In this document: piece by piece, positions 19,664 to 21,216 of the stretch
Position numbering within the stretch: position 1 is the first letter of the stretch
Layout: each line of letters starts with the position of its first letter
Assembly (NCBI RefSeq): GCF_000219625.1
Contig: NC_018216.1
Coordinates: 2,232,001-2,296,000 of the forward strand
DNA length: 64,000 nucleotides
DNA from: Zymoseptoria tritici IPO323
Lineage: Eukaryota > Ascomycota > Dothideomycetes > Mycosphaerellales > Mycosphaerellaceae
Direction: 5' to 3'
Made by a program: the position numbers and the translations under genes
The notes under the pieces: generated by a model
Database searches by the model: none
Told to the model about the DNA's origin: nothing
What the model saw: the letters and a program-made list of their open reading frames with translations, nothing else

Positions 19664-21012
19664 GTCGGAGCGGGGTGGTAGAGTCGTCGTCGATAAGCTG
19701 CTGCAGTGCTTTGTCGGAGTATGCCACAAGGCTTTCGGTCGTAGGCGTGGCAGCGATGCTGAGCGGTTCTTCAGCGGTGATGCTGTTAACGAGACTTTAA
19801 ATAAGAGTTTACTACTGACGCTTGCTTGCGCCGTATTGATTGATTACACGACAATCATTGCTAGTATCCTTTGGTCCATTGTCATCCGTCTTCTCGATTC
19901 GTCTTGTACAATGAGAGATGGTGAGAGATGGTTCTCTATTTGCTTGCTGTGCGCTGAACCCAGTGCCTTCAAGGTGTCTCGTTGAAGTGCGTCACTAGTA
20001 CACATATCATTGCTTGCTTGATTCCTCTTCTTCAAAGTAGCCGGTCGTAGCGTAGTAAAGGTTTGTAGGTCTGGGTAAGAAAATTAAGGAGAGGGGAAAG
20101 TACATAAGGGACCATGGCTGAATGACGGCGAAATGTTCCGTTGTCGATGGTCACTAGCTAACCAGTGACAAGTCGCTTCGACCATGTGGATGTTGGTCGA
20201 GCGCTTGATACATTGCATTGCTCGACAGACTCCCACGGAACAGCGGTGGTGTTGAGGATATTGCTTTCCTGGCCTGTTCCTGGGCTTCGCGAGGGCTCTC
20301 AGGTCCCGGAACCAAAGCTACACTTGGTGGCACGATTGATGTTGGGTTCCGCCGGCAACGAGCTTCGACGAAGGGGTTGAAGGAACTTGATATTACGGGT
20401 CTCTTGGCTTGAGATGATCGAACTTCGGAACGCTACGCATTGGGTACTCTTGCAGCATGATGTTTGATCATTCCCTGGGAGCGGATCAATCGAGGCTTTC
20501 GAATGCCGTAAGACAGCCTCCCCTTACGATTTTGGGCGCTTGTATAGCTCTTGAGGCAGGTTCTGTCGCTGGTGATACGAGCAATGAATGTTCAATCCAA
20601 GAATCCAGGAACACAGGAACCTTTTTCGCAGTCATGCATGAGCCCGCTGACCAGTCCTGCAGGGACAGTCTCTGTGAATGTGTTCGTTGTTGTCGTGGCT
20701 TTGCAGCAAAGTTCACTGCCAAACGTCAGACGATAGAAATTGTGACGATCGGACTTGCATTAGACATACGCCATTCTAGCCATTGCATCCTCCGTTTTGA
20801 TCGGAATAACGTGTTGAATGGCTCAAAAGAACGAGCACTCTCGTGACTATCGTCTAGTGTCTTCGAAATATATTTGCGGCCCTGCGGTCAATATTTACGG
20901 CCGTTTAAGGTCGAAGGATCTTAAATGTTCAGAAGACAATCGTGGCTTAGATCTATTGGAACCGTAGAATTAATTATATATTTGGCTACGGCTTCCCCGA
21001 CACTACAGCTTA
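19664..21012. other. gene-free stretch upstream of tRNA-Ala
   Basis: About 1.3 kb without a supported gene. It becomes AT-rich just before the tRNA (around 20930-20985), as is common upstream of Pol III genes. Confidence 0.3.
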
Positions 21013-21208
21013 GGGCTTATGGTGCAGTGGTAGCATTCTCGCTTTGCATTCTGTGCATTTCTGTGAGCGGTCCGGTGAGTTTTCCAGTTCTACTGCAACG
21101 TTGCACAATGATCTTATGCTAACATACTCCCAGGGGTGTACGTCTTCCGATCAACGCCTACATTACGGACATTAGCTAATGATGTGTAGTCAAACCCCCG
21201 TGGGTCCA
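21013..21208 (+). tRNA. tRNA-Ala(UGC) interrupted by three introns, two of spliceosomal type
   Basis: Acceptor GGGCTTA (21013-21019) pairs with TGGGTCC (21201-21207), with A73 at 21208. The pairs include G3-U70, the alanine identity element. D arm GTGC/GCAT; anticodon stem CTCGC (21038-21042) with GTGAG (21063-21067); anticodon TGC at 21045-21047. Removed segments are 21049-21061 (13 nt, the normal intron after position 37, containing TGCA that can pair with the anticodon), 21075-21133 (59 nt, between 50 and 51; donor GTGAGT, branch GCTAAC, acceptor CCCAG) and 21138-21189 (52 nt, between 54 and 55; donor GTACGT, branch GCTAAT, acceptor GTAG). The joined T arm is CGGGG-TTCAAAC-CCCCG, fully paired. 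Mature length is 72 nt. Unspliced, the gene would look like a broken tRNA. Confidence 0.8.
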
Positions 21209-21212
21209 GTCC

Positions 21213-21216
21213 TTTT
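21213..21216 (+). terminator. Pol III T-run after tRNA-Ala
   Basis: TTTT begins five bases after the discriminator base of the reconstructed tRNA-Ala, the expected place for Pol III termination. Confidence 0.6.

Follow-up and report, generated by a model that had tools for sequence, protein, structure and literature searches.

Spliceosomal-type introns in a nuclear tRNA-Ala(UGC) gene and further tRNA genes of the wheat pathogen Zymoseptoria tritici

The introns of tRNAs and those of mRNAs are taught as separate systems, each with its own machine. The nearest precedents for an mRNA-type intron in a tRNA gene are the introns of two other small RNAs, U6 and U3. The U6 snRNA gene of Schizosaccharomyces pombe is described as carrying an mRNA-type intron in a Pol III RNA (PMC10484740), and fungal U3 snoRNA genes, those of Dothideomycetes included, are described as having normal spliceosomal introns, identified by computation (PMC5832005); the spliceosome can therefore act on small structured RNAs. 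Several introns in one tRNA gene, up to three and at odd positions, are reported from Cyanidioschyzon merolae and some archaea (Thermoproteales), where endonuclease is said to cut them at BHB motifs (PMC4033280, PMC9602550, PMC4090602). tRNAscan-SE 2.0 is reported to analyse archaeal-model candidates for non-canonical introns by BHB models (PMC8450103), so the program is expected to miss genes like those presented below. Large-scale gain of spliceosomal introns has been reported in Z. tritici (PMC4457414). The author of an earlier note on the present DNA knew of no previous description of spliceosomal introns in tRNA genes, and our searches of the open-licence PMC literature likewise listed none; the string "spliceosom" is absent from the text of PMC4033280, PMC8450103 and PMC4090602, and occurs once, on protein genes, in that of PMC3978253.

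The window (the whole stretch of DNA analysed, 64,000 nt of strain IPO323; contig NC_018216.1, positions 2,232,001 to 2,296,000) contains at 21013-21208 a tRNA-Ala(UGC) gene that is interrupted by three segments exactly where the earlier note had placed them (Table 1). Excision of the three leaves 72 nt, which ARAGORN calls tRNA-Ala(TGC) and which fold into the perfect cloverleaf that had been claimed, with stem pairs 21/21: GGGCTTA TG GTGC AGTGGTA GCAT T CTCGC TTTGCAT GTGAG CGGTC CGGGG TTCAAAC CCCCG TGGGTCC A. The G3-U70 pair and A73 named in that note are both present and the downstream TTTT was located; with the TGC anticodon and the invariant bases T54T55C56A57A58, A14 and G18G19, the spliced RNA has the features of a nuclear tRNA-Ala. 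Unspliced, the locus yielded no tRNA by ARAGORN and none by Rfam at the gathering score, its Rfam tRNA match being sub-threshold at 15.6 bits. The whole pre-tRNA folded no better than its shuffles (z -0.12).

The 13-nt segment lies at the 37/38 position of Sen-type introns and contains TGCA, which, as read from the sequence, is complementary to the anticodon TGC plus A37. The 59- and 52-nt segments lie away from that position, and their ends and branch sites proved to be those previously given (GTGAGT...GCTAAC...CAG and GTACGT...GCTAAT...TAG, respectively). Three equivalent registers exist for the 59-nt intron, only one of them GT-AG, and a single register for the 52-nt intron. Other classes were considered and rejected: a single composite intron (21075-21189) would, on reading the sequence, leave no T stem; a stwintron does not apply, the GGGT between the two introns being required for the T arm and having to be retained; and for group I or II introns the segments are too short and the window held no Rfam match at the gathering score. 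Decayed stems or identity bases, by which a tRNA pseudogene might be recognized, were not found in the fully paired Ala cloverleaf.

Table 1. Features of the tRNA-Ala(UGC) gene (window coordinates) and of three further interrupted tRNA genes (locus and contig).
Feature	Position	Strand	Basis or remarks
Candidate TATA box for TFIIIB, TATATAT (putative function)	20975..20981	+	38 nt upstream of nt 1
Exon 1, tRNA-Ala nt 1-37	21013..21048	+	excision and fold
A box, TGGTGCAGTGG, uninterrupted, in exon 1	21020-21030	+	by the A-box consensus
13-nt intron, canonical 37/38 site, tRNA-endonuclease type	21049..21061	+	equivalent register 21050-21062
Exon 2, nt 38-50	21062..21074	+	excision and fold
59-nt GT-AG intron, between nt 50/51	21075..21133	+	GTGAGT, CTAAC, CAG; branch A 11 nt from 3' end
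Microexon GGGT, 4 nt, nt 51-54	21134..21137	+	excision and fold
52-nt GT-AG intron, between nt 54/55	21138..21189	+	GTACGT, CTAAT, TAG; branch A 10 nt from 3' end
Exon 4, nt 55-73 (3' T arm, acceptor, A73)	21190..21208	+	excision and fold
B-box-like GGGTCCAGTCC	21202..21212	+	2 mismatches to GGTTCRANNCC
Candidate Pol III terminator, TTTT (putative function)	21213..21216	+	
tRNA-Gln(UUG)	L134, C9	-	stem pairs 21/21 after splicing
Gln intron 1, 55 nt, after nt 19	L134	-	GCAAGT...TCTAAC...CAG (GC-AG)
Gln intron 2, 52 nt, 27/28	L134	-	GTAAGC...GCTAAC...CAG
tRNA-Tyr(GUA), 53-nt intron in D loop, 15/16	L138, C11		GTACAC...CCTAAC...CAG; stem pairs 21/21
tRNA-Asp(GUC), 58-nt intron in anticodon stem, 30/31	L150, C1	-	GTACGT...ATTAAC...CAG; stem pairs 20/21

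A finder that excises one or two candidate GT/GC-AG introns with a branch motif, and then demands a strict tRNA, gave one match in the window under its first branch rule, namely the tRNA-Ala(UGC) gene. No match was obtained in the reversed window, in five shuffles of it, in 530,818 strand-bases of 87 other 3-kb loci of the genome (four loci containing the Ala gene, L009, L010, L091 and L101, having been dropped) or in the reversal of these loci. Single excisions alone in 91 long loci gave a tRNA in 0/4,584 cases. Under a wider branch rule, the window again gave one match and 60 shuffles gave none (133,639 single and 209,511 double excisions). The earlier description of the two T-arm introns as exactly like the mRNA introns of the window was assessed as motif enrichment alone: the window has 32 matches to the intron motif against a mean of 13 in 60 shuffles (sd 3.3, maximum 21). 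The combined signal set, which was defined post hoc, is present in 29 of 767,342 window segments of equal lengths, and plain GT..AG in 2,990.

At least three more genes with spliceosomal-type introns, for Gln(UUG), Tyr(GUA) and Asp(GUC), accompany the Ala gene in the roughly 0.3 Mb examined besides the window (295,394 letters of loci, <1% of the genome). Seventeen loci were selected for a B box followed by T's; the list from which they were drawn has 76 rows, some of them overlapping, where the backward control gives 11. Two more came from 20 additional regions, the other 18 of which were left out (one inside L065). In the 16 of the 17 selected loci that were searched whole, two tRNAs, Gln and Tyr, appear only after excision of spliceosomal-type introns, and an Ala(CGC) was found without such excision, with a 60-nt insert at 37/38 and one acceptor mismatch. 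The TTAAC branch of the Asp intron fell outside the first rule and was spotted by eye before the wider finder accepted the gene; run on L132-L150 (with L140 searched piecewise) and on six long loci, that finder added Asp alone. An intron at 37/38 is also present in all four genes (13, 13, 19 and 17 nt in Ala, Gln, Tyr and Asp, respectively). ARAGORN names the four correctly only when they are spliced; unspliced, three go uncalled and Asp is miscalled as Arg. The six additional introns (52-59 nt) comprise five GT-AG and one GC-AG, with the branch motif CTAAC in four, CTAAT in one and TTAAC in one (all YTAAY) and a branch A 10-12 nt from the 3' end in every case, and thus have the GT-AG or GC-AG ends and the branch motif near the 3' end by which U2-type introns are recognized in sequence.

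Because the finder that yielded Gln and Tyr requires these signals, the signals of these two genes are not independent of discovery, and a blind excision test served as a check. All excisions of 40-130 nt were made with splice signals ignored and any other intron already removed; for the Ala introns, a tRNA with at least 20 pairs was required. With the 52-nt Ala intron, a tRNA results from a single excision among 23,296, the one with the ends GTACGT...TAG. With the 59-nt intron, 16 among 23,933 yield a tRNA; three are registers of the intron given in Table 1, which is the sole GT-AG solution. Excisions giving a tRNA numbered 28/16,744 and 13/16,471 for the Gln introns (two and one of them, respectively, with GT-AG or GC-AG ends), 18/21,476 for Tyr and 4/8,736 for Asp (one each with such ends); the Tyr intron has five equivalent registers, one of them GT-AG. 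In 6/6 cases, the tabulated intron is among the solutions with GT-AG or GC-AG ends. Of the six, the 52-nt Ala intron is the only one whose position follows from structure alone; the boundary of the 59-nt intron rests more on its splice signals, structure by itself being weaker there. A chance origin of the Ala cloverleaf together with its splice signals is rejected by the shuffle, reversal and blind-excision controls.

The four genes resemble those with canonical tRNA introns in that each carries one at 37/38, and differ from them in the extra introns at 50/51 and 54/55 (Ala), after nt 19 and at 27/28 (Gln), at 15/16 (Tyr) and at 30/31 (Asp). With C. merolae and Thermoproteales, as these are described in the sources cited above, they share the presence of several introns per tRNA gene, outside 37/38; those introns are of the BHB/endonuclease kind, whereas the ones reported here are 52-59 nt long with GT-AG ends and branch sites. 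The likeness to S. pombe U6, as far as that gene is portrayed in its source, is a spliceosomal intron in a structured small RNA made by Pol III, which in the tRNA genes is the presumed polymerase. U6 differs in being a spliceosome component whose intron is thought to stem from reverse splicing, whereas here several tRNA genes have at most two such introns each plus one of endonuclease type. U3 likewise offers spliceosomal introns in a small structured fungal RNA, identified by computation; it is not a tRNA, and its introns are reported to be almost confined to one stem-loop. Introner-like elements exist in many near-identical copies, and the six introns matched only themselves by BLAST in the window plus the 295,394 letters, which amount to <1% of the genome.

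The genome of Z. tritici (Mycosphaerella graminicola) IPO323 is described as finished, with 21 chromosomes and 39.7 Mb (PMC3111534), which makes the absence of a sequence informative within the limits of the search tool; ours, a DNA search, scores only the best candidates, and diverged copies may escape it. The earlier note had named other intact tRNA-Ala(UGC) genes among the observations that would speak against its reading, and none was found when the 39.7-Mb genome was searched with the spliced tRNA, which returned only the gene's own 5' half. Two pattern searches of the genome matched the Ala gene itself and nothing else, and a third listed 20 loci, one of them the Ala gene, in which neither ARAGORN nor the strict finder sees a tRNA. 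The spliced Gln returned its own 3' half alone, and the spliced Tyr returned its own locus and a 3' half on C6, with no uninterrupted copy. The latter (L149, C6:231225-231412) is 97% identical to tRNA-Tyr over 34 nt and stands, cassette-like, behind a long hairpin; no Tyr 5' half was legible in its 188-nt neighbourhood. The spliced Asp returned three loci, none continuous, which break after nt 30 (C1), 33 (C12) and 30 (C5): the C1 locus matches nt 1-30 and 38-72. At C12:180123-180244, the match covers nt 1-33 and 38-52 with 74 bases between them and ends at nt 52, and at C5:695948-695977 it is to nt 1-30 alone.

Recognizable tRNA genes without introns of this type were also present in the sequence examined, namely Arg(CCG), Arg(ACG), Trp(CCA), Ser(UGA) and Ala(CGC). 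ARAGORN also calls an Arg(TCT), in L130, which the strict finder rejects; the share of genes with spliceosomal-type introns is therefore 4/9 or 4/10 in what is a small, non-random sample. At 2474-2685 of the window (minus strand), ARAGORN reports a tRNA-Ser(act) containing a 139-nt intron, which is probably a false call. A generic Rfam tRNA search of the genome listed 58 matches, and 37 of the 40 examined are tRNA-like repeats. These repeats (ggctagttagtctagtagtataatttct...; L001-L008 and L011-L050) are dispersed over many contigs, are assigned by ARAGORN to Cys(ACA) or Tyr(ATA) and show C-to-T type variation; their abundance hides true tRNA genes in such a search. Another group of sequences consists of tRNA-like cassettes (L064, C3:2409805-2412840, with four copies; L140, L139, L133, L135 and L137), two sets of which are small arrays. 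They have conserved D and T arms, acceptors that pair or nearly do and, by eye, TATA-like strings and T-runs; where the anticodon loop would be, they have unrelated inserts, very roughly 50-120 nt long and in some cases containing hairpins. No T33 plus anticodon was legible in most of those looked at, and L139 could read TCG. By eye, four 5' halves can be seen in L140 (C11:1548020-1549370), of which three have a 3' half to match. In L137 (C11:767720-768040), a tRNA-like 3' half together with its T-run occurs twice in tandem, spaced by 60 nt. To judge from their sequence, the cassettes look like Pol III genes of an unassigned kind.

The reading that best fits these data is the one first proposed in the earlier note, a nuclear tRNA gene with both spliceosomal-type and endonuclease-type introns, to which three more such genes and the lack of uninterrupted copies in our searches lend support. 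With a probability of roughly 0.86, we regard the locus as a working nuclear tRNA-Ala(UGC) gene that belongs to a genomic set and whose T arm is interrupted by two U2-type spliceosomal introns, in addition to the usual intron at 37/38. The least probable alternative, to which we give hardly any credence, is that the six extra introns are of the C. merolae-like endonuclease (BHB) kind and have GT-AG ends by chance. The layout would be similar, since tRNA-Ile(UAU) of that alga is described with introns in the D, anticodon and T arms (PMC9602550), and substrate choice there is reported to be tied to BHB motifs (PMC4090602); however, GT/GC-AG ends and a branch site at a fixed distance recur in 6/6 introns, and strict BHB centre pairing of the six was 2, 2, 0, 1, 3 and 1 of 4, in what is a weak test, given that the four 37/38 introns scored 2, 2, 2 and 4. 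It is scarcely more probable that the genes are dead, intron-invaded tRNA relics whose work is done by intact copies that were not seen. Diverged copies could be missed by a search that scores best candidates only, the tRNA census is poor with so many of the examined Rfam matches being repeats, the Asp matches on C5 and C12 are partial, and Ala(UGC) itself might be dispensable given other Ala tRNAs; yet the stems are complete in Ala, Gln and Tyr and lack one pair in Asp, the splice signals are intact in 6/6 introns, and the DNA search found no intact copy for any of the four. Because only one isoacceptor exists for Tyr and one for Asp, it should be their interrupted genes that do the work, which makes dead genes unlikely.

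An alternative that we consider unlikely, with somewhat more in its favour, accepts the introns as spliceosomal and places them in a Pol II precursor, a longer transcript that would release the tRNA. Speaking for it are the usual coupling of spliceosomal splicing to Pol II and the 52-nt intron that interrupts the Ala B box (nt 52-62). B-box-like matches near the gene, including that in Table 1, number two in 396 nt, close to the window rate and thus no better than chance, so that Pol III transcription of Ala needs another explanation. Against a Pol II precursor, the B boxes of Gln, Tyr and Asp are uninterrupted, T-runs follow 4/4 genes, and TATA-like strings precede three of them (at -38 in Ala; -29, -55 and -58 in Gln; -6, -58 and -60 in Tyr), with none in the 27 upstream bases of Asp; S. 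pombe U6, moreover, is a precedent, in the account cited above, for an mRNA-type intron in a Pol III RNA.

For a working gene with spliceosomal introns, we infer that the introns are spliced and that the spliceosome does so; the polymerase, the splicing machinery and the order of steps are likewise proposals. Pol III transcription would be directed by the upstream TATA box and the A box, and the short precursor would end at the T-run. The spliceosome would then remove the 52-59-nt introns by intron definition, which would rebuild the T arm, D arm or anticodon stem, and RNase P, RNase Z, Sen endonuclease and tRNA ligase would complete the tRNA. A spliceosomal step first is plausible because the T arm ought to be in place by the time of 3' processing. 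By analogy with C. merolae, in which D- and T-arm introns are described as being removed ahead of the anticodon intron (PMC9602550), such an order may apply here as well. Against this explanation, the spliceosome has difficulty with an exon of just 4 nt flanked by two introns.

If the proposed reading is true, the spliceosome is able to act on tRNA precursors, tRNA genes can join in spliceosomal intron gain, and an intron may interrupt the B box of a tRNA gene. Published tRNA counts would also be affected: for Peltaster fructicola, a related species, only 44 tRNA genes by tRNAscan-SE are reported and read as reduction (PMC7181583), and we conjecture that interrupted genes could partly explain that number. 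We consider it probable, with less confidence than for the Ala gene itself, that decoding in Z. tritici depends on the spliceosome, in that certain indispensable isoacceptors (Asp GUC and Tyr GUA) would be encoded by interrupted genes only, two splicing machineries would act in series on each precursor, and standard finders would overlook a substantial fraction of the tRNA genes in this fungus and perhaps in its relatives among the Dothideomycetes. In a fungus that infects wheat, the machine that splices mRNA may thus be necessary for making some of the adaptor tRNAs.
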